Made by a program: the position numbers and the translations under genes
Origin: an uncultured Prevotellaceae bacterium
GTDB lineage: Bacteria > Bacteroidota > Bacteroidia > Bacteroidales > Muribaculaceae
Direction of reading: 5' to 3'
NCBI GenBank assembly: GCA_947167995.1
Contig: CAMVKS010000017.1
Span: 1 to 53,338 of the forward strand
Length of the DNA stretch: 53,338 bases
Shown: piece by piece, positions 43,850-53,338 of the stretch
Layout of the letters: the number at the start of each line of letters is the position of its first letter
Position numbering within the stretch: the first letter of the stretch is position 1
Notes under the pieces: model-generated
Seen by the model: the letters and a program-made list of their open reading frames with translations, nothing else
Told to the model about the DNA's origin: nothing
Databases searched by the model: none

Positions 43850-45907
43850 CTACTTTCTCGTGCCAAGGAGAATATTGTATATCACGGTGATATCAACGGT
43901 AGTGATAAAGCCATCACCGTCAACATCGCTTGTAGCAATATAAGTCTCGTCGCCGTTGAGGAGATAATTATAAAGCGCTGTGATATCGGCAGTGGTAACA
44001 TATCCGTCGCAGTTTACGTCGCCAATTAGCATATGAACCACATTAAACGAGCACTCGTTGTCGCCGCCGGCGATTTTGTCGACAAGGTCGGCGGTGCCGG
44101 CTTTAAAGTTGTCGAACGTGAGCGAATAGGTGCCCTCAGGAACGCCAGCAGTGGTGGCGAACTTCATCGTCACTACCCTACCCTCGCCTGGTGCAATCTC
44201 GCTATTTGCTAATGAGTATATGAAGCAGCGAATCACGCCGTTGCCCATGCTGCGATGTGCCATCGAGAAGCCGTTGGCGCGCTCGCCCCATGTGTACTCA
44301 TCGGTTGGCGTGAACCACTGGCTTGGATAAGTGACATCAAACTGGATGCCATTCACTGGGTCGTAGTTGCTCAGGTCAACGTGCAGAAGCAGAGCACCAT
44401 CGTTCAGCACATCCTCGGCAGTAAAATGCAGATAGTTTGGCGCAAAGCGTGAACCAGTGACAACGATGTTGTGCAGGCGGTGATCGGGGTCATTGCTGTA
44501 GAGCTGCATCATTGCCTCGAAAGGCGCCTGCTCCTGGCCGTTGAAACTCACATGGAGCGTTACGCTCTGCCAAGGTTCAATAACCAATGGGAACGACTCT
44601 GCCACAGTAAAGCCATCGGCATTAAACACCACACGGTCGATGCTCAAAGGCGCATTGCCGTAGTTATAGACATTAACCTCGCCTTGGGCGACCTCTGTAA
44701 TAGGTGTGGCACCAAGGTCAAGCTGGTCTTGAGCGTTCAACTGCGGGCTCTGAATGTCGATATAGCCCTCATACTTGTCGCTGAGCACATCCATGTCCTG
44801 ACCTTTATAGATGGCAGTTAGCACGGCCTTTGAAGCGCCCAAGTTGCAGCCATAGCGGCCATTGAGCTTCACGTCGAACGAGGCAATTACGCCGTCATTG
44901 CCGCTGAAGGTGCTGTTGCCAAGTGAATAGGCGATGGCACGGAGCTTGCCGTTGTTGTGAGTCACCACAAGTTGGTGGTCGCCTTTGCGGTCGCTCAGGG
45001 CAAACGAGCCGTCAACATATTGCAGCTGTTCGGGCAAGTCAAACTCAAACTGGAAGCCAGTGATGGCATCCATATTGTTCACTCGCAAGGGGATGGTCAC
45101 AATGCTGTCGGCGATGCCGCTGGCGTTCTCCACATGGAGCTCATTGACGGCAAAGGGGTCAGCAACAACGCGGATGGTGTTGGTACCAGCGATATTGTTG
45201 CTCAGCAGTCGCACTGTCTCCTCTATCGCGCCACGTTCCACGGGGCTGTAGGTGATGTCGACATAGTCAGTGTTGCCTGGAGCAATCTCATAGGGGAATG
45301 GCGTCTCGCTCGAGAACTCCACTGCGCTTGGCTCAATGCCACTGATAATAAGTGGTATATTGCCAACATTGGTCACCTGCAGACTCTGGTGGTAGACGCT
45401 GCGGATGGGGATATGCCCAAAGTCGATGTCACGGGTGGCGAGCTGCGCCTTGGCGGCAGCGATGGTGAGTGAGCCGCTTGTGGCGCTGCCGCTGAGCGTG
45501 GCGCCGCTGGCATCGGTGAGGGTAACCTTAGTGGCATCGAGGGCGATGGTCTGCGGCTCGTTGCCGAGAAGCACCCGGAACGAGAGCACATTGCCGCTGC
45601 CAGGCTCGATGGTGGCCATGCCATTGCTCCACACCATGATGTTGAGCATGCCGTCGCGGATTCCCACCTTGGCGCTGTGGCTGGCAGCTCGTGAGGTGAT
45701 CACCTCGCTGCCAGTGACGACGGTAATACCGTCGCCCACAGGAACTTGCAGCTGTATGGCGCTCACGGGGTCATCGTTGGCGAGGGCGACGGTGAGCGTC
45801 ACCTCCTCGCTGGGCGCACCCGAGACGCTGGGCAACAACACCACGTTCCCCGCCCGAGCCCAAACGGCCATCATCGCACATATTATAAATAATAATCTAT
45901 ATCTCAT
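43850..45907 (-). CDS. Secreted protein with three cohesin-like modules and a C-terminal dockerin
   Basis: 685 aa. Signal peptide residues 1-19. Then three cohesin-like beta modules at about 20-150, 256-388 and 490-625, each with the VxGxQF-type strand (VSAIQLQVPVG, ITGFQFEFDLP, VNGIQFDVTYP) and a closing GxVxxFxV strand. They alternate with two ASH/HYDIN-type Ig-like modules (about 150-255 and 390-490; LQVTNVGNIPLIISGI, VNVYNYGNAPLSIDRV). The C-terminus is a type I dockerin (629-685) with two calcium loops, DVNCDGYVTTAD and DVDGDGFITTVD, ending four residues later without a T9SS tail. Cohesin and dockerin are the binding partners of cellulosomes. Here they suggest a protein scaffold at the surface, possibly with the neighbouring subtilase, which also has a dockerin. 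Cohesin assignment is by pattern and needs a profile search. Confidence 0.75.
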   Translation of the reverse strand: MRYRLLFIICAMMAVWARAGNVVLLPSVSGAPSEEVTLTVALANDDPVSAIQLQVPVGDGITVVTGSEVITSRAASHSAKVGIRDGMLNIMVWSNGMATIEPGSGNVLSFRVLLGNEPQTIALDATKVTLTDASGATLSGSATSGSLTIAAAKAQLATRDIDFGHIPIRSVYHQSLQVTNVGNIPLIISGIEPSAVEFSSETPFPYEIAPGNTDYVDITYSPVERGAIEETVRLLSNNIAGTNTIRVVADPFAVNELHVENASGIADSIVTIPLRVNNMDAITGFQFEFDLPEQLQYVDGSFALSDRKGDHQLVVTHNNGKLRAIAYSLGNSTFSGNDGVIASFDVKLNGRYGCNLGASKAVLTAIYKGQDMDVLSDKYEGYIDIQSPQLNAQDQLDLGATPITEVAQGEVNVYNYGNAPLSIDRVVFNADGFTVAESFPLVIEPWQSVTLHVSFNGQEQAPFEAMMQLYSNDPDHRLHNIVVTGSRFAPNYLHFTAEDVLNDGALLLHVDLSNYDPVNGIQFDVTYPSQWFTPTDEYTWGERANGFSMAHRSMGNGVIRCFIYSLANSEIAPGEGRVVTMKFATTAGVPEGTYSLTFDNFKAGTADLVDKIAGGDNECSFNVVHMLIGDVNCDGYVTTADITALYNYLLNGDETYIATSDVDGDGFITTVDITVIYNILLGTRK

Positions 45908-45963
45908 ATTCAGTTATCAAATTTTCGTTAAGATACTGTTCTTTAGACAAACAGACATACTGA

Positions 45964-46033
45964 CAATTTCGTTAGATGATATAGTAATCTCAAAAAGTTG
46001 CCACTTCGTGGTCATAAAGCCTGCTTACGCAGG
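45964..46033 (+). repeat. Repeat element E1 (full copy)
   Basis: Matches E5 and E4 over its whole length: CAATTTCGTTAGAT, a short variable spacer, TAATCTCAAAAAG, a variable hairpin (here CCAC-TTC-GTGG), then AAAGCCTGCTTACGCAGGA. Confidence 0.75.
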
Positions 46034-46047
46034 ATTTTTATATTATT

Positions 46048-46100
46048 CCGAGCTTGCGAGGCTTTTCGACACCGAGAGGTGCAGCTTTTCGAAATAATCA
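46048..46100 (-). repeat. Repeat element E2 (partial, inverted)
   Basis: Read on the minus strand it has AAAGCTGCACCTCTCGGTGT and CGAAAAGCC of the element, with hairpin CACC-TCTC-GGTG. The CAATTGCG end is missing and the GCAGG hairpin is replaced by a different, imperfect one. It forms an inverted pair with E1. Confidence 0.6.
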
Positions 46101-46161
46101 TGTAATCATTTTATTTTTCCACTCCTGGCGGAGTGGAAATTAAAGCTTCGCTAAAATTATA

Positions 46162-46242
46162 ATGGTGCTTCGCACTAATTATTAATTAAATTTTAGAGTC
46201 GCAGACTCTCTAATTTTCATGTGCGCAGCACATGGCAAAAAG
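46162..46242 (+). repeat. Direct repeat R1 (81 bp)
   Basis: 73 of 81 bases are identical to R2 at 51907-51987 in the same orientation, with no gap. It contains three hairpins (GTGC-TTC-GCAC, GAGTC-GCA-GACTC, ATGTGC-GCA-GCACAT) and ends ATGGCAAAAAG. The two copies bracket the subtilase unit, 5.7 kb apart. Confidence 0.85.
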
Positions 46243-46294
46243 AGCATCTATCGCAATTGTGCATTATACATTGGTTAAAGTAGCGTTGTTTTCC

Positions 46295-46329
46295 TCTCAC
46301 AAAGCTGCACCTACTGGTGTCACAAAGTC
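46295..46329 (+). repeat. Repeat element E3 (partial)
   Basis: TCTCACAAAGCTGCACC, loop TACT, GGTGTC matches the middle of E5 with a changed loop. Both outer parts are lost. Confidence 0.6.
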
Positions 46330-46431
46330 TTTCAGCATCAATGGGCTTCGTCTCAGCATAAATCAAGCAAGCTTGATGTTCTGCATTCGACTTGCGCCAT
46401 TGGTCGCGCATGCGCGGAATATTTATTTTTT

Positions 46432-46505
46432 TCCTGCGTAAGCAGGCTTTTCGACGAGCTTTGCTCGCAACTTTGTGAGATTAATTTGTATCTAACGCAA
46501 TTGTG
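46432..46505 (-). repeat. Repeat element E4 (full, inverted)
   Basis: On the minus strand it reads CACAATTGCGTTAGATAC, a 5-base spacer, TAATCTCACAAAG, variable hairpin CGAGC-AAA-GCTCG, TCGAAAAGCC and TGCTTACGCAGG. Both outer parts are identical to E5, which lies in the opposite orientation on the other side of the subtilase unit. Confidence 0.8.
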
Positions 46506-46562
46506 AATGAGGTGGGAAGGTGAGAGAGAAAGGTTCTCTCCACTCTCACTCTCCCCTCTCAC

Positions 46563-49500
46563 TTATTTAACTACTTTCACTCCGTTTACGATGTAGATGC
46601 CGTGGGGCAGGCGGTTAATGTCACTCGCCTTGCTTGAAATCTTGCGGCCCATCATGTCGTAGATGCCCTGTGGCACGGCGCGCTTGCCGTCGGCGTTGAT
46701 AGTCTCCACTGCTGTTACGATACTTGGCGTTGCCATCACGTTGTGGCCATAGGCATCACTCAAGCGGATGTCGGCAATCTCGTTGTCGCCAATGTTCAGG
46801 ATTGGGTGACGGCCTGCGCTGATGGTACGGCCTGCCATGTTATAGGCGAGGAACAAGTAGTCATTGTCTGCAAGCCAAGTGCTCACCTTCTCGAAGCCAT
46901 CAAGATCCTCGGTTGGAGTGATGGAGCTGCCCTGAGGAGCATCCAGACTTACCTGAACACCAGCAAGGTCAACAGGGGTCTCAAGCCATACCACACCATC
47001 CTTCACCCAATACTCTGCCACGCTCTCGATAGAGGCGGTAGCTGGGGCAGCATCAGGATTAGTGATAATGCGGATAATGCCTATCACGTCAAGGATATCA
47101 ATCTCGGTGTCGACATTCACATCGGCAGCCTCAAAGATAAACGGCCTCGGCTCCATGCCAGCTGCATAGTTCACTGTTGTGATAACATCTGCCACATCAA
47201 CCTCACCACTGGCATTAGCGTCGCCAAGAGTAGAAGTCAACGGAGTAGCAGCCACCACATTGCTGATGTCGTACTCCTTCAAGTCGGTCGAGAGCACCTT
47301 GTAGTAATAGTAATAAGTCTCACCTGGAGTTACCTCGTAGTCGGTGAACGAAGTAGTTTCAAGGTCAAGAATCATCTGGTTGAGGCGGATGGTGTCGCTT
47401 ACCATAATGGTGTCATACTCGAAATAGTTGCCTTGGTCATCCCAATGAGGATTATAAACCTCTTTAGGATATGGCTCGCCATAGCGATAGACGTTGAATC
47501 CCATCGCATCCTCAAAGTCGTTGTTCTCATTGTTCCATTTGAGCTTCACATTACCCATACCAGCCTCGGCTTCAAAACCTGTTGCCATTGAGCCAGCAGC
47601 CTGAACAAGGACATTGAAACGGCTGCTTTCTTCTGGAATGTCGAAATGGTCATAGTCTTTGCCACCTATAACCTTGATGCGATTGAGGCCATCAGCCTGC
47701 AGTTTGCCTGTAATATTAAGGAAAGCAGTATAGACGCTAACACTATCTTTCACACTCCAAAAACCATCCTCGGCAATACCGGTTTGAGTATAGGGAGGAC
47801 GAACACCCATTGTTATGGTTGGAGTGAAGGTCGTGTCCATATCGTCACGATTGTAGTAAATCTCAAATTTGTGACGACCAACACCTAATGGTGGCAACTG
47901 GTCAAATTCATCTTGAGCGTCATAACCATCAACAACAACTTTCCAAACAATGCCGTGGGTTTCTTTAAATGGTCGATTCAACATATTAGATAAGTCAATT
48001 TTTGAATAGCCCCATCCATTCTCAATATCAAAAATTGTCTCTCTTGCTATGGATTCTTTTGTTGTACCAAGATAATTTTCTCTATAAACAAGTCCAGAAT
48101 ATTCAGAAAAATAAACATAAGTAATTGAATTATTTACAATATTAGATTCATAGATTTTCTCAAAGAAATTTGGTGTATATCCTTTCCCTGCGTTGTAAAA
48201 ACTATTATTTATAATATTTGAATTATTAAACCTAGTGTCTCTAGGGAGATAAGCATCATCAGTGGCACCTGTGCCACAACTAAAAATCCAATTACATTTA
48301 TTTAATTCACCATAAGTAGAATATAATCTTGAACTTCCACAATTATCAATTATAGAATTTTCTAAATAAATATTATATAAATAACTATAAGTCTGTTCTG
48401 AATCAGTAAAATGATTATCTGAAATTTTAACGTAATTCATGTATGTTGGGGAAGAAGCAAATATATTAAACCCACCATTAGTCCATGATAAAACATCGTC
48501 GCCAATAAATTCTATCATATTATCTTTCTCTCCATTAGCAATTAGATTTCCATCATTCTTTATACCTGACTCATTTCGAAAATATAATTTTGTTCCAGGT
48601 TTTATAGTGAGAGTTCTTCCGTTAGGAATTGCAATATTTCTTTTTACTATATAGTGTTTGTTGGGATATAAGGTTATATCTTCATTAATAACTCCACCCA
48701 ATTCCACACCATTCTCAACCTCAAAAACATGTTCTTGCTCGATATTAGCTAAAAGATTGTCACTAGTAATTACAATTTTATAAGGTAGATGCAAACCATC
48801 GTTAGCATTCTCATTGACTCTAACACGGATTGGATTCTTACTCTTGAATGAACCACGACTGTTTAGTGACCAACCGAAATCAACATTGTTATTTAAAACT
48901 TCAAGGGCATCGGTAGGAACATTGTCATCGTATGGTTCAATTGCAATCTTAATATTTTCAGCATGGCCCCATAGGCTACGGATGGTTGGCCAAATATTGA
49001 TTGTCTCTCCAGCATCGAAGCGGCCATCGCTATCACCATCACTATCATCAATCTCCAGTGCCGTTAAAGCAAGAGCAACTTGGCGGTTTGTCTCATCAAA
49101 ACTTGCAGCTTGATATGCATTGAATAAAGCAAAATCGGTAAGCCCTCCAGCTTTCGCCATAGCCATGTCACCCATCAGTCCATAGTCACGGGCGTAGTCA
49201 AAGCCCTTGACCTGAAGGATACGCGAGATGGCACCGGCCACCATGGGTGTAGCCATCGAGGTACCATTAAGCGACTTGTAGCTGCCATTCAAGTATGTGC
49301 TCATAATGCCAACACCTGGAGCCATAAGGTCATAATTCCACATCATTTCGTCATTCCAAGTGACTTCTTGTGAAAAAGCCTTATCCATATTATATTTTGA
49401 GAAGAATGGTCCATCGGGGTCATAATTGCTGAAACTAGCAAGTTGACCATCAGAATTTGATGCCATAACGCCCAAAACTATATCATAAGCACCAGGGAAT

Positions 49501-50606
49501 GAACATCCAGAAACAGAATAGATACTATATCCATTATTCCCCGCGGCACCAACAAGTACTGCATAATTGGTGAGAGTTTTGCATAGCGACTGATACATTG
49601 CTCCTGATGGTATGGGAGAGCCAAAACTCATGCTAAGCACATTGGCACCGCAAGCTGCGGCATAGTCAATTCCACGGCAGATAGTTGCCACGTCTCCAGT
49701 ACCATCGTCACCCATCACCTTGATAGGGAGGATATAGGCATCGGGATTGGCTCCTGTAATGCCAATGCCGTTGTCGCCAACTGCGGCAGCTATACCAGCG
49801 CAGTGAGTCCCATGACCGTTGCGGTCCATGCCGTTGCCAATGATTGCAGTTCCTGCAATAAAATCCCAACCGTGCACGTCATCAACATAACCGTTGTTGT
49901 CGTCGTCTTCATAATCAGCACCATTGGCTTCATTGGGATTGGTCCAGATATTGGCTTCAAGGTCGGGGTGTGTGATATCAACACCAGTATCAAGAATTGC
50001 AATAATTGGGCGAGTTTCATCTGTTTTGGGCATTTCCCATAACTGAGGCATATTGATTTCATTCAATCCCCACTGCTGACTGAACATTGGTTCGGCTTGA
50101 TAAGCAGTTGATTCCTCGGTTGACTGAATAAAGGCGAGGTAGTTTGGCTCGGCAAACTCCACTTCTTTCAGACTTTTGAGCATCTCAACTGCGCTCATGA
50201 CATTGTTTGCATCGTTTTCCTCAAACTTCAGGCAATAAAGTTTGGAGAGGTTGGGCTCGATGATGGTGCGCCCCGAAAGGCTTTTAGCCTTGCGAGGGGC
50301 ACGGTTCTTGATGTCGCCAGTGAGCGGCATGAGCTGCTCAGCCTGTGTGACACCGATTGTTGTCATCACTTTGTCGATGGCACTCACGCTTGTGGTTTTG
50401 AGCTTGCCATTCTCGCTCTTGATATTCACTGGCGAGTTCTCGTGGAACTTCACAATCACTTGCCCAGGTCGATAACGCTGAGCATAATGGTCAACCTTGT
50501 TGACACCGTCTTCGTTGTTGTTGCTCACCATCTGCGCCTGCAGCGGCACGGCCGCTAGGAGCACAGCGATAGCGAGCAAAAATGGTTTGAATAGTTTTTG
50601 TTTCAT
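46563..50606 (-). CDS. Secreted S8 subtilisin-like protease with Fn3, dockerin and T9SS C-terminal tail
   Basis: 1347 aa from the ATG at 50606, where a signal peptide starts (MKQKLFKPFLLAIAVLLAAV, cleaved near LQAQ). An inhibitor-like propeptide covers about residues 40-165 (RYRPGQVIVKF). The subtilase domain has the full triad: Asp206 in AILDTGVDITHPD, His265 in NGHGTHCAG and Ser450 in NGTSMATPM. A middle region (about 640-860) with TLTIKPGTKLYF and many Asn/Ser/Tyr-rich strands looks like a parallel beta-helix and is AT-richer than the rest. An Fn3-like domain, a dockerin-like pair (GDANASGEVDVAD, ADVNVDTEIDILD) and a T9SS type A tail (GIYDMMGRKI ... LPHGIYIVNGVKVVK) follow. It should be exported by the T9SS encoded in this window. 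The start overlaps the upstream gene as ATGA. Confidence 0.92.
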   Translation of the reverse strand: MKQKLFKPFLLAIAVLLAAVPLQAQMVSNNNEDGVNKVDHYAQRYRPGQVIVKFHENSPVNIKSENGKLKTTSVSAIDKVMTTIGVTQAEQLMPLTGDIKNRAPRKAKSLSGRTIIEPNLSKLYCLKFEENDANNVMSAVEMLKSLKEVEFAEPNYLAFIQSTEESTAYQAEPMFSQQWGLNEINMPQLWEMPKTDETRPIIAILDTGVDITHPDLEANIWTNPNEANGADYEDDDNNGYVDDVHGWDFIAGTAIIGNGMDRNGHGTHCAGIAAAVGDNGIGITGANPDAYILPIKVMGDDGTGDVATICRGIDYAAACGANVLSMSFGSPIPSGAMYQSLCKTLTNYAVLVGAAGNNGYSIYSVSGCSFPGAYDIVLGVMASNSDGQLASFSNYDPDGPFFSKYNMDKAFSQEVTWNDEMMWNYDLMAPGVGIMSTYLNGSYKSLNGTSMATPMVAGAISRILQVKGFDYARDYGLMGDMAMAKAGGLTDFALFNAYQAASFDETNRQVALALTALEIDDSDGDSDGRFDAGETINIWPTIRSLWGHAENIKIAIEPYDDNVPTDALEVLNNNVDFGWSLNSRGSFKSKNPIRVRVNENANDGLHLPYKIVITSDNLLANIEQEHVFEVENGVELGGVINEDITLYPNKHYIVKRNIAIPNGRTLTIKPGTKLYFRNESGIKNDGNLIANGEKDNMIEFIGDDVLSWTNGGFNIFASSPTYMNYVKISDNHFTDSEQTYSYLYNIYLENSIIDNCGSSRLYSTYGELNKCNWIFSCGTGATDDAYLPRDTRFNNSNIINNSFYNAGKGYTPNFFEKIYESNIVNNSITYVYFSEYSGLVYRENYLGTTKESIARETIFDIENGWGYSKIDLSNMLNRPFKETHGIVWKVVVDGYDAQDEFDQLPPLGVGRHKFEIYYNRDDMDTTFTPTITMGVRPPYTQTGIAEDGFWSVKDSVSVYTAFLNITGKLQADGLNRIKVIGGKDYDHFDIPEESSRFNVLVQAAGSMATGFEAEAGMGNVKLKWNNENNDFEDAMGFNVYRYGEPYPKEVYNPHWDDQGNYFEYDTIMVSDTIRLNQMILDLETTSFTDYEVTPGETYYYYYKVLSTDLKEYDISNVVAATPLTSTLGDANASGEVDVADVITTVNYAAGMEPRPFIFEAADVNVDTEIDILDVIGIIRIITNPDAAPATASIESVAEYWVKDGVVWLETPVDLAGVQVSLDAPQGSSITPTEDLDGFEKVSTWLADNDYLFLAYNMAGRTISAGRHPILNIGDNEIADIRLSDAYGHNVMATPSIVTAVETINADGKRAVPQGIYDMMGRKISSKASDINRLPHGIYIVNGVKVVK

Positions 50607-51319
50607 GATTGAAAAAAATTTATGATTGGTAATATTGAAAACAACAAAAAGATGGTCAAAAACATCATAAATATGCAACAACTTAAATTGGTTTTACTAC
50701 AAATTAATTTCTTAGCAGATGGCTTTACTTTAATTTTATCGTAAAATTCTCTTTCTCTTGTTTTATATTTAAAATAATAAAAAATCAAAATAGTAAAACT
50801 TAATAAAAGAGGAGTGAATAAAGACAATAATAGGCAACAATTATTTGTAATAAAGTGGGAATATACCAATAGTTTATATGATAAAAATGAAAATACCACT
50901 TGAATCATTAAACACGATACGTATATAATAAAGTAATTATTTGGCAGGAAAGTAATTATGGTTTTGCCTTTTGCTTGGAACATATCATCAAGCTTCGTTT
51001 TGGTTTTTCCTACAAAATATATTTCCCTGATAATATTAATTATGAATTGATCTCTTCTTTGAGTATAACCATAATTAATAATTATGACAGATAAAGTCAG
51101 TAATAGAATTGATACTAAAATAGTTATAGCAAAAAAAAGTAATGCCCTATCAGAAAGACAAATATAGTATTTTTCTAAAAAAATGCCATAACCACTAAAA
51201 ATAAATGTAATTGAAACTATAAAATATATAACAATATTAGTTTTTTGGCTATCAGCGATTGCATATTGCTCATGAAGCTGACTACAAAACTCATAGCTCA
51301 TTTCCTCTCTTGTCTTCAT
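50603..51319 (-). CDS. Five-helix membrane protein coupled to the subtilase
   Basis: 238 aa, not recognised. Hydrophobic helices lie at about residues 27-49, 59-82, 123-146, 154-178 and 208-234. A charged N-terminus (MKTREEMSYEFCSQLHEQYA) and the loops between helices 2 and 3 (YTQRRDQFIINIIREIYF, KTKTKLDDMFQ) and 4 and 5 (KTREREFYDKIKVK) are basic and probably cytoplasmic. The first helix hairpin with its preceding amphipathic segment is vaguely like SLATT-type effectors, but this is weak. The stop codon overlaps the protease ATG (ATGA), so the two are translated together. The gene is strikingly AT-rich compared with neighbours, suggesting recent acquisition. It could be an immunity, sensing or transport partner of the protease; none is shown. 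Confidence 0.7.
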   Translation of the reverse strand: MKTREEMSYEFCSQLHEQYAIADSQKTNIVIYFIVSITFIFSGYGIFLEKYYICLSDRALLFFAITILVSILLLTLSVIIINYGYTQRRDQFIINIIREIYFVGKTKTKLDDMFQAKGKTIITFLPNNYFIIYVSCLMIQVVFSFLSYKLLVYSHFITNNCCLLLSLFTPLLLSFTILIFYYFKYKTREREFYDKIKVKPSAKKLICSKTNLSCCIFMMFLTIFLLFSILPIINFFQS

Positions 51320-51369
51320 GTCTATTTTTTCTCGCTCTTTAGTCTCCCGAAAAAGGTTGTAGTTTTCGT

Positions 51370-51630
51370 GGTTGGTATAGAAAGATAGCGTGGAGACTTG
51401 TCTTGTTTATTGTTTACGAGGCTTCGGCATGCCTTCAACGAAATAAACAATCCACCCCACGCCGTGCCGATATATCGTCCCTTGTCACGGGTAGATATAG
51501 GCAAGCGAAGGCGTCTTGGACTGCTTCTCCTTCGTTGATGAAATTTGCCGAATTTCGTAAACAGGATAAGCAAAAACGCTTTCTTTTTATGTCATCAAGC
51601 GAGAGCTGGACTCTACCAGTTTTGCTTGAA
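51370..51630 (-). ncRNA. Candidate structured RNA or leader upstream of the membrane protein-subtilase operon
   Basis: A long rod can be drawn: TTGTTTAT+TGTTTACGA (51403-51419) with TCGTAAACA+ATAAGCAA (51555-51573); TTCGGCA (51423-51429) with TGCCGAA (51546-51552); TCAACGAA (51435-51442) with TTCGTTGA (51531-51538); TCCA/TGGA and ACGCC/GGCGT (51459-51463, 51510-51514); TGCC+TATATC (51465-51476) with GATATAGGCA (51494-51503); and a CCC/GGG tip. A second hairpin, TCAAGC/GCTTGA with inner CTGG/CCAG, is at 51595-51629. A promoter with both elements points into it from the right, giving a start near 51629. No clear terminator separates it from the membrane protein ATG at 51319, so it may be a roughly 310-base leader or be processed. 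Reading frames on both strands here look like by-products. Confidence 0.55.
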
Positions 51631-51635
51631 TGTTG

Positions 51636-51667
51636 CAAAAATAAATATATTATTAAAGAAAAACAAA
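51636..51667 (-). promoter_or_regulatory. Leftward promoter of the structured RNA and subtilase operon
   Basis: On the minus strand TTTG (51667-51664), 20 bases, TATTTTTG (51643-51636): a full consensus match. Predicted start near 51629, at the first base of the 5' hairpin. Confidence 0.7.
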
Positions 51668-51724
51668 AAATAATAACATTTTTAGCAACAATTGATAAAA
51701 AGGACCAATTTGAACCAACAAAAT

Positions 51725-51756
51725 CTGAGTTTTGAGTTTTGAGTTTTGAGTTTTTG
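51725..51756. repeat. GAGTTTT heptamer array
   Basis: Four consecutive gagtttt units. On the minus strand, toward the subtilase operon, it reads aaaactc, the word of the array at 41405. A looser array of the same style is at 51869-51905. Confidence 0.7.
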
Positions 51757-51775
51757 CCACTCCTGGTTTTCAATG

Positions 51776-51850
51776 CACAATTGCGTTAGATACTGGAATA
51801 ATCTCACAAAGCTGCACCTGTCGGTGTCGAAAAGCCTGCTTACGCAGGAA
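51776..51850 (+). repeat. Repeat element E5 (full copy)
   Basis: CACAATTGCGTTAGATAC, 5 bases, TAATCTCACAAAG, hairpin CACC-TGTC-GGTG, TCGAAAAGCC, TGCTTACGCAGGAA. It is inverted relative to E4, so the CACAATTGCG ends of both copies face the subtilase unit. Confidence 0.8.
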
Positions 51851-51906
51851 ATTTAGGCTGCGCATGGGAGTTTTGAGTTATTAGTTCAGAGTTCAAAGTT
51901 CTGAAT

Positions 51907-51987
51907 ATGGTGCTTCGTGCTAATTTTTTTATAAATTTTAGAGTCGAAGACTCTTTAATTTTCATGTGCGCAGCACATGGCAAAAAG
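51907..51987 (+). repeat. Direct repeat R2 (81 bp)
   Basis: Second copy of R1. Changes within hairpins keep pairing: GCAC becomes GTGC (G-U pairs with GTGC possible), and the GAGTC/GACTC loop changes from GCA to GAA. Its end lies 4 bases before the -33 element of the HAD gene promoter. Confidence 0.85.
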
Positions 51988-51991
51988 TAAA

Positions 51992-52023
51992 TTTGCATAT
52001 TTTGGTTAATGGTTGTATCTTTG
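51992..52023 (+). promoter_or_regulatory. Promoter of the HAD phosphatase gene
   Basis: TTTG (51992-51995), 20 bases, TATCTTTG (52016-52023): full consensus. Predicted start near 52029, about 15 bases before the ATG. Confidence 0.75.
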
Positions 52024-52043
52024 TCGTTTAATTAGCATTAGAT

Positions 52044-52685
52044 ATGACCGAGAGAGCTATAAAAGGCGTATTGTTTGACCTCGACGGGGTGTTGATTGAC
52101 ACCGAGGGGACTTACACGCAGTTCTGGGAGGCGGCAGACAGGCACTTTCCCACTGGCGTTGAGGGCTTTGCGCAGGTGATTAAAGGGTCGAACCTGCACA
52201 ACATCCTGCACACCTATTTCCCCACTAAGGAGATGCGCGCGCAAGTGACCGAGATGCTCGACAACTTCCAGCGTGACATGCAGTATAATTACTTCCCTGG
52301 AGCCATCGAGCTGCTCGATGAGCTCAAGAGTAACGGAATTGCCTGCTGCATCGTCACAAGCAGCGACCGACAGAAGATGGAATCATTATATCGCCAGCAC
52401 CCCGACTTCCCGAGTCATTTCGATGCAATCGTAACCGGCAATATGGTGAAGGAGCCAAAGCCGTCGCCCGAGTGCTTCCTGCTCGGCGCCAAGATGCTGG
52501 GCATCGACATCAAGGACTGCGTGGTGATTGAAGACTCCATCAACGGCCTGAAAGCCGGCATGGCGAGCGGTGCGCGCGTGATAGGCCTGTCGACCACATG
52601 CCCAGGCGATGCCATCTCTCCTCATTGCCACATGGTGGCACCATCAATAAGCAATATCACAGTACAATCAATTTTGGATTTTTAA
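52044..52685 (+). CDS. HAD family hydrolase, beta-phosphoglucomutase-like
   Basis: 213 aa. HAD motif I FDLDGVLIDTEG (residues 11-22) has both aspartates, motif II is CIVTSSDRQK, motif III the Lys of EPKPSPECFLLGAKMLG and motif IV VIEDSINGLKAGMASG. A helical cap of the phosphoglucomutase type lies between motifs I and II. Such proteins are sugar-phosphate phosphatases or beta-phosphoglucomutases; the substrate cannot be told. It is followed after 12 bases by the lipoprotein gene. Confidence 0.88.
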   Translation: MTERAIKGVLFDLDGVLIDTEGTYTQFWEAADRHFPTGVEGFAQVIKGSNLHNILHTYFPTKEMRAQVTEMLDNFQRDMQYNYFPGAIELLDELKSNGIACCIVTSSDRQKMESLYRQHPDFPSHFDAIVTGNMVKEPKPSPECFLLGAKMLGIDIKDCVVIEDSINGLKAGMASGARVIGLSTTCPGDAISPHCHMVAPSISNITVQSILDF

Positions 52686-52697
52686 AACCTTCAAAAA

Positions 52698-53168
52698 ATG
52701 AAAATAAAAGTATTATTAATCGTGGCATTAATTACAACAACTCTCGCAGGATGCGGCAACAAGGACAAGAGCCCCAAAATGCTGGCACAAAACAAGGCGA
52801 CTGCCACAGTAATCGACAACAAAGACGAAGAGACGTTCTTGCGCTCTTTCTTAGATAGTTATATCAAGCTCGACGACAAGCAGGCACAAGAGCTGGCGCG
52901 ACAATACCTCACGCAAGATTTCTACAGCGACTATATCGAGCACTGCAACAACCAGGACTATGCTGTCGACGTGATATGCGAAACAGCACCTGGCGACAAG
53001 GTCGAGATGGTGGAAACAATCACCAAGGGCAGCGAGGACCCCAACAGCTATATCGTGCAAGTGCAGCTCGTGGGACCCGAAAACAAACCCTTCCCCATGC
53101 AGTATGACATGACTGTTGTGAAGGAAGACGGAAAATTCAAACTCAGCGACAGCGAAGTCAACGACTGA
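52698..53168 (+). CDS. Small lipoprotein (possibly DUF3828-type)
   Basis: 156 aa. The lipobox TTTLAGCGN gives Cys19 as the lipidated residue. The mature part begins with a polar linker and has FLRSFLDSYIKLDDKQAQELARQYLTQDFYSDY, then VDVICETAPGDKVEMVETI and FKLSDSEVND, like the NTF2-type DUF3828 proteins of Bacteroidales by recollection. It is probably in the outer membrane or inner membrane facing the periplasm. It shares the HAD gene promoter and ends in a terminator. Function unknown. Confidence 0.7.
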   Translation: MKIKVLLIVALITTTLAGCGNKDKSPKMLAQNKATATVIDNKDEETFLRSFLDSYIKLDDKQAQELARQYLTQDFYSDYIEHCNNQDYAVDVICETAPGDKVEMVETITKGSEDPNSYIVQVQLVGPENKPFPMQYDMTVVKEDGKFKLSDSEVND

Positions 53169-53203
53169 TTTCTCGAGAGCAGAAATCAGGAATCATAATC
53201 AGA

Positions 53204-53250
53204 GACGTTGTCGGGACCTAATCTCCCGACATCGTCTTGTTTTATTATTA
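53204..53250 (+). terminator. Rho-independent terminator of the HAD-lipoprotein operon
   Basis: GACG-TT-GTCGGGA, loop CCTAATC, TCCCGAC-AT-CGTC (53204-53236) forms a 13-position stem with one mismatch and is followed by TTGTTTTATTATTAT. The remaining bases to 53338 show no gene. Confidence 0.85.
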
Positions 53251-53338
53251 TAGGAAATTTTGTGATTTGGCAAGAAAGTGTTATCTTTCCTGTTTTCCGC
53301 ATAGTTTGATTTGCAAAAAAACGTCGCTTGAAAATCAG

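Follow-up and report, generated by a model that had tools for sequence, protein, structure and literature searches.

A two-hairpin intergenic repeat in one genus of uncultured gut Bacteroidales keeps its stems paired through sequence change

How can a short repeat carry quite different hairpins between nearly constant flanks, with nearly every hairpin still paired? The question is raised by the window analysed here, a 53,338-nt contig of an uncultured Prevotellaceae bacterium (CAMVKS010000017.1, contig 17 in a 121-contig, 2.9-Mb assembly), in which two gene spacers hold five copies, E1 to E5, of such a repeat. A preliminary description had proposed either selection for structure or an active process that swaps or rewrites the hairpins. 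Our comparison of copies across related genomes points to a family of "arms" resembling repetitive extragenic palindromic (REP) sequences and bacterial interspersed mosaic elements (BIMEs), a variant of that kind of intergenic palindromic repeat and not a member of it, to which we assign a probability of roughly 0.6. We infer that the hairpin differences arose by descent within arm classes together with stepwise compensatory mutation.

The unit is an arm of about 60 nt, AATCTC(A/G)(A/C)AAAGYTG, hairpin 1, TCRAAAAG and hairpin 2, in which two mini-hairpins would stand between constant single-stranded flanks. A flank-based collection, in which arms with other hairpin-1 feet would not appear, yielded 183 distinct contexts with 58 distinct cores from 147 sources. 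Hairpin 1 falls into three classes: class A, mostly CACC, CATC or CAAC in cores of 11-12 nt (113/183); class B, CGAAC-like and 13 nt long (53/183); and class C, CCAC in 11 nt (14/183); the three other flank matches are probably not arms. Hairpin 2 has a stem of at least 5 bp in 132 of the 183, most commonly CCTGC, CTGGC or CCGGC, and is replaced in about 20 arms by CCTCGCAAGCTCGG, which is unpaired on the arm strand. Many arms of the CTGGC subfamily end in AATAATCT / AGATTATT. The flank motifs earlier taken as shared by E1, E4 and E5 stand with a correction, as E1 reads CAATTTCGTTAGAT and CTCAAAAAG, and the third of them, CAATTGCGTTAGAT, is a separate module, present with up to two substitutions within 60 nt upstream of 6 of the 183 arms.

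Pairing is preserved while the letters change. Among 24 distinct arms hand-picked for clean alignment, arms with CCTCGCAAGCTCGG being excluded, 190 of 192 cells are standard pairs, compared with 26-37% when the partners are slid by 1-3 columns. The arms covary: 38 cells are changed on both sides, against 13.1 ± 2.4 in shuffles, none of 500 of which reached that number, so the earlier suggestion that structure is kept despite sequence change is borne out. The preliminary description had also looked to a genome-wide collection of copies, and many were found with mostly paired cores: hairpin 1 has a stem of at least 4 bp in 168 of the 183 contexts (the other 15 fall short of that length), and 163 of these 168 stems are fully Watson-Crick. 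This set is not unbiased, because part of its stretches was chosen with R1, a search model that scores pairing and was built from 24 sequences including E4 and E5 but not E1. Of the 84 contexts from stretches picked before R1, found through likeness to E5 or through the flanks, 75 have such a stem; among flank matches listed outside the genus, which served as a control, it occurs in 3 of 37. Distinct cores are paired more often than shuffled ones in class A (0.94 vs 0.882 ± 0.009), class B (0.958 vs 0.909 ± 0.012) and the 11-nt cores (0.929 vs 0.704 ± 0.067, the top shuffle equalling the observed value). Permuting distinct cores of equal length gives 44/58 with at least 4 bp vs 30.8 ± 1.9, a weak comparison because related copies share stems.

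The stems themselves suggest the path of change. Eight fully Watson-Crick types occur (CACC, CATC, CAAC, CGCC, CGAAC, CGAGC, CAAGC and CCAC with their complements), as do intermediates with a GU pair or a mismatch, among them CATC/GGTG, CACC/GATG, CACC/GTTG, CGAAC/GTTTG and CAAAC/GTTCG. In the 107 class-A cores of 12 nt, pair 3-10 is CG in 73, TA in 20, AT in 7, TG in 2, CA in 3 and CT in 2; in class B, pair 4-10 is AT in 40 and GC in 13 of 53. Three arm classes, together with steps at single pairs that pass through GU or mismatched intermediates, account for the differences, and no swapping of hairpins has to be invoked, although template switching may have helped some compensatory changes along. 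Because change in class A is mostly confined to one base pair, the independent events may be few.

R1 recovered all five window copies (E 1.4e-16 to 9.5e-6), E4 and E5 matching by construction because both are among its source sequences. It matched 24 of 101 genomes of the same genus, with at least 1 to at least 49 matches per genome and at least 44 in the window's own genome, all lower bounds given that at most 54 candidates were scored per genome under strict filters. Across 198 genomes of the taxonomic family, matches were found in 6 of 16 members of the genus and, among the 182 others, only in G008 (G, C and L numbers are our handles for genomes, contigs and loci), where the sequence (E 0.0013) is not arm-like and was judged a chance match. 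The arms have thus been seen so far, R1 having been searched within the taxonomic family, in a single genus of uncultured gut Bacteroidales. No match to window positions 45964-46100 was obtained in phage and plasmid collections, nor any exact match to one class-A pattern in viral contigs; a loose-pattern scan of a genome collection was set aside, the matches listed being mostly due to chance. Among distinct arms in longer loci, 58 of 61 lie outside open reading frames (ORFs) of at least 110 aa, and the remaining three fall inside possibly spurious ORFs of 122-144 aa.

Within the window, the hairpin-1 cores are those the preliminary description had read. E1 (45983-46041, + strand; R1 67.4 bits) combines the class C core CCAC-TTC-GTGG with hairpin 2 CCTGC-TTAC-GCAGG, and E2 (46040-46099, - strand; 50 bits) combines the class A core CACC-TCTC-GGTG with CCTCGCAAGCTCGG as its second module; together they form an inverted pair at about 45984-46101, of which the relative G252 has a near-identical counterpart. 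The same spacer includes a 244-bp block (46246-46489) holding E3 and E4. E3 (46290-46344, + strand; 32 bits) is a truncated arm that has hairpin 1 CACC-TACT-GGTG, lacks hairpin 2 and continues into a different repeat module. A separate repeat of about 78 bp (46328-46405, + strand; CTTTCAGCATCAATGGGCTTCG...CGCCATTGG) is also present in genus genomes without R1 matches, for instance G095 and G207. E4 (46425-46485, - strand; 72.7 bits) has the class B core CGAGC-AAA-GCTCG, and E5 (51797-51856, + strand; 77.6 bits) the class A core CACC-TGTC-GGTG, both with the same hairpin 2 as E1; a CAATTGCGTTAGAT module (51778-51791, + strand) lies upstream of E5. The spacer of E1 to E4 separates a cohesin/dockerin-domain gene (43850-45907, - strand) from a subtilase gene (46563-50681, - strand), and that of E5 separates a gene without a Pfam match (50603-51319, - strand) from a HAD hydrolase gene (from 52044, + strand). 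A neighbouring module with hairpins AGAGTC-GCA-GACTCT and CATGTGC-GCA-GCACATG lies at 46162-46242 (+ strand) and recurs at 51907-51987. The window's spacers hold 14 mini-hairpins vs 3.1 ± 1.7 in shuffles within 40-nt blocks, eight with GN(N)A loops vs 0.28, and four of the 14 belong to arms; the 47,571 nt of coding DNA contain 102, nine with such loops. Elsewhere in the same genome, G000:C2:5500-9500 (L047) holds a near-identical spacer copy with both flanking genes, a duplicated cohesin/dockerin and subtilase gene pair.

Arms occur alone or as inverted pairs, and the strict pairs are hetero-pairs. With the hairpin-2 sides facing and 40-66 nt between flanks, 37 arms are paired, 30 as AB and 7 as AC; pairs were counted from each arm, so one pair may count twice, and the total takes in the tandem arrays of C108 and C11. 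Arms inverted as A+B or A+C could fold together into one long hairpin or cruciform, and the E1/E2 pair does fold in silico as one long hairpin (z -2.4 and -2.5 as DNA, -3.9 and -4.0 as RNA), whereas the single arms E4 and E5 fold as two small hairpins (z -1.6 to -3.0 as DNA). The loops are also recurrent. Read on the reverse strand, hairpin 1 of class A has a GNNA loop in 84 of 103 cases and a GNA loop in 4; for hairpin 2 the respective figures are 123 and 2 of 132, and class C has GNA in 13 of 14.

These features are consistent with a repeat that is recognised or processed as folded single-stranded DNA, its hairpins being retained for that reason, and that would spread non-autonomously, either passively, at replication forks, or through an enzyme, most probably of the HUH/Y1 type. 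A more specific version, which we put forward tentatively and consider rather unlikely, is that the A+B pair is the minimal left-end/right-end substrate of an enzyme acting on single-strand DNA, to which the constant flanks and the existence of hairpins (mostly with GN(N)A loops) would matter, and not the stem letters; if so, the hairpins would be free to diverge provided they pair.

Several results weigh against the REP/BIME-like reading. Single arms outnumber paired ones: a downstream partner is found for 54 of 174 even when the pattern is lax, nine arms with too little sequence having been dropped. In class A, similarity over the 22 nt outside hairpin 1 is lower among paired arms (0.606, 31 arms) than among single arms (0.691, 76 arms), which counts against the pair as a mobile unit; the corresponding class B values are 0.736 (18) and 0.686 (32; p 0.21). 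In the 24-arm alignment, neither the pairs with a double change (4 vs 3.8 in shuffles) nor the further pair types (7 vs 7.4) are in excess, and the copies are related, so that a few events may explain much of the variation. Class-B hairpin 1 has no GNA or GNNA loop (0/51). No clean insertion of a single arm with target duplication was found, presence and absence being seen only for larger blocks. At the G060:C30 pair, the spacer was too diverged for an empty site to be recognised.

The search for an enzyme adds to these objections. The preliminary description had looked for a linked recombinase or Rep-like enzyme; no convincing arm occurs in 98 partly overlapping loci (36 + 12 + 50) of Y1 or REP-associated tyrosine transposase (RAYT)-like genes, 75 of them from arm-carrying genomes, a set that does not include every such gene and was not extended to other recombinases. 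The lone R1 match among them (E = 0.28) was taken as chance. Of the 101 genus genomes, 87 carry Y1 transposases (PF01797, E up to 1e-5). RAYT-like genes scoring below the NF047646 cut-off are present in 16 of the 17 element carriers searched at E up to 1e-4, and in 6 of the 7 searched at E up to 1. An initial view that G122 and G156 have no Y1-type genes (PF01797 at E 1e-5) proved wrong, as NF047646 finds RAYT-like genes below its cut-off there. The arm-richest genome, G252 (at least 49 matches), has a weak NF047646 match (E 0.24) and one PF01797 match. The absence of convincing arms from the Y1/RAYT-like loci covered leaves a cognate enzyme that is unseen, lost or absent.

Some of these loci have hairpins of their own. 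Of 12 RAYT-like loci examined closely, eight (L420, L421, L423, L424, L425, L427, L428 and L429) are bracketed by matching hairpins of kinds other than the arms, such as TCGGCGATACCATCGCCGA, or CGGCGACAAAGTCGCCG five times on one side; this counts in favour of the REP/BIME-like reading. In the window's own genome, the Y1 genes of L254 (G000:C44) and L255 (G000:C20) are flanked on both sides by hairpins whose centre, AAAAGAACCGTCCCTTTT, is constant and whose outer stems (GACCG.., ATCGAAC..) are specific to each gene; related hairpins lie beside the L427 gene and in G135:C29 near 238.6 kb. Separately, G135:C21 has two class-C arms roughly 1 kb away from a gene (L353 6033-6989) that looks like a transposase and carries, by a weak rve match, an integrase core domain.

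A possible, if doubtful, alternative is that the arms are passive repeats without a dedicated enzyme, multiplied through slippage during replication, through template switching and through recombination where short repeats occur, as might be supposed for the mobile hairpin elements of organelles. Gain and loss of blocks at direct repeats and the tandem arrays speak for it, and both also count in favour of the REP/BIME-like reading. G252 has the same two genes and the E1/E2 pair, and is without window positions 46246-46489 by alignment and by BLAST; the window has the 19-bp direct repeats ATCTATCGCAATTGTGCAT (46246-46264, + strand) and ATCTAACGCAATTGTGAAT (46490-46508, + strand) where G252 has one copy, so E3 and E4 were gained or lost as a block. 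The CAATTGCGTTAGAT motif belongs to this repeat at the ends of the block, the right copy containing its reverse. For the REP/BIME-like reading it also counts that further relatives (G202 and G263), in which both gene flanks match by BLAST 130 and 102 bp apart, are without the whole spacer mosaic, and that G256 lacks a block of some 190 bp with arm sequence that G135 has. On that reading, recombination between short direct repeats would both lengthen and shorten spacers. Tandem arrays advance in 149-bp steps in C108 and C11 and in 146-bp steps in G040:C25, G252:C32 holds a partial tandem duplication, CTGGC arms join differing neighbours at the same two points, and a C90 copy has a chimeric hairpin 2; the lack of a linked Y1/RAYT-like gene fits as well. 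However, dozens of dispersed copies with constant flanks need a route to new sites, and strict A+B/A+C pairing is not predicted by passive multiplication.

Other sequences adjoin the arms. In G252, a YoeB-like toxin gene and a likely antitoxin gene (L349 10373-10923) lie beside a class-A arm where the window has a different gene, and CTGGC arms in L348 and L346 have next to them recurrent copies of a stretch resembling a promoter, with a leader and start codon (CTATCTTTGCGGATGGCAGAAAACAGATTGAATTATGGCAAG), which apparently derive from a gene family. A gene-cassette reading of the modules that adjoin arms in G040:C18 and G135:C29 was rejected, since these resemble the promoter and beginning of genes in a family.

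It is unlikely that the element acts at the RNA level, with transcribed arms whose hairpins serve in mRNA as terminator, stabiliser or protein site. Preservation of hairpins through change would be expected of such an element, and the E1/E2 pair does fold better than shuffles as RNA; E5 as RNA gives z -0.8 and -1.7. Of the 61 arms in longer loci, 35 lie between same-direction genes, 8 between divergent and 4 between convergent ones, and 11 at edges; same-direction, divergent and convergent spacers number 64, 19 and 10, so that convergent genes are not enriched (4/47 arms vs 10/93 spacers), and the arm positions give no sign of a terminator role. Between same-direction genes, 25 of 35 arms run opposite to the genes and 10 along them, which would put the GNNA loops on the sense strand, but this bias is weak because the copies are related. 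GNA and GNNA loops closed by C-G are unusually stable in DNA, whereas RNA prefers GNRA. Hairpin 2 loops are mostly GNRA (111 of 132, or of 123 GNNA loops), whereas class-A hairpin 1 loops are mostly GNYA (70 of 84, against 14 GNRA), so the loop types do not decide between DNA and RNA. An Rfam scan of window positions 45500-53338 gave no match up to E = 1, and the block copies, arrays and patchy presence resemble the dynamics of a repeat.

Active replacement of hairpins, by template switching or at a recombination site with a variable cruciform, was the more striking proposal of the preliminary description, and we regard it as improbable. The same flanks do enclose quite different paired cores in different classes, and template switching can yield multi-base compensatory changes, according to PMC8794818. 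However, the cores sort into the three classes described above, with single-pair steps inside them, and no linked Y1/RAYT-like gene was found among the loci covered. The one apparent exchange, the C90 copy with a CTGGC left half and a GCAGG right half in hairpin 2, produced mismatches and not a newly paired hairpin. Integron attC-like sites, with a variable paired core and constant ends, are a very unlikely reading: the arms do sit between genes, and GTTAGAT presumably resembles the attC R-type box, but the module bearing it is near only 6 of 183 arms.

The arms offer a compact system for testing DNA-level selection for hairpins, with many copies, clear classes, strict hetero-pairing among the observed pairs, and relatives that do or do not carry copies. 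The family also shows how a gene spacer in these gut bacteria became several times longer than in relatives. REP-like repeats without a known transposase are an open case, as PMC3733652 states for CGTC repeats.

No description of this arm family was found in the open-licence literature, and its closest counterparts are instructive. Arms share with REP, BIME and REP doublet forming hairpin (REPIN) sequences, which are GTAG-tagged and RAYT-associated in PMC3733652 and PMC3116915 (the latter defining REPINs), the character of short extragenic palindromes in tens of copies, with inverted pairs, hetero-pairs, tandem clusters and stem variants; recognition of REP as folded single strands by TnpA-REP is described in PMC8266576. 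Unlike REP, the arms are without a GTAG tag, their hairpin-1 feet being AAAGYTG and TCRAAAAG, which also counts against the reading; they have two hairpins each, with stems of 4-5 bp, and no RAYT-like gene was found with arms beside it. Unlike REPINs, they are mostly single, and pairs are not more conserved than singles. Because the GTAG, RAYT and doublet comparisons all fail, we class them as a variant.

With miniature inverted-repeat transposable elements (MITEs) and palindromic elements derived from IS200-IS605, the arms share non-coding, dispersed copies, and the frequent ends of the CTGGC subfamily may be a further likeness; no target duplication could be delimited, and no parent transposase was found. 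Like the double-hairpin mobile elements of organelles (sponge RHE, PMC2800124), they are hairpin repeats in spacers with a patchy presence among related taxa, but they occupy a bacterial chromosome and have constant flanks and inverted A/B pairing. PMC3733652 describes both GTAG and CGTC palindromes, with hetero-pairs, and CGTC repeats without a transposase. Compared with CGTC repeats, which there have stems of 8-9 bp that start with A-T pairs and mostly a CCA tail, arm hairpin-1 stems are 4-5 bp and begin with C-G; hairpin 1 of class-B arms does finish in CGTC, although the CG there takes part in pairing. As in the CGTC repeats, hetero-pairs occur and no dedicated transposase has been found, and one CGTC group is described in that source as having two extra stem-loops in the spacer between partners, an arrangement that we liken to the arms.

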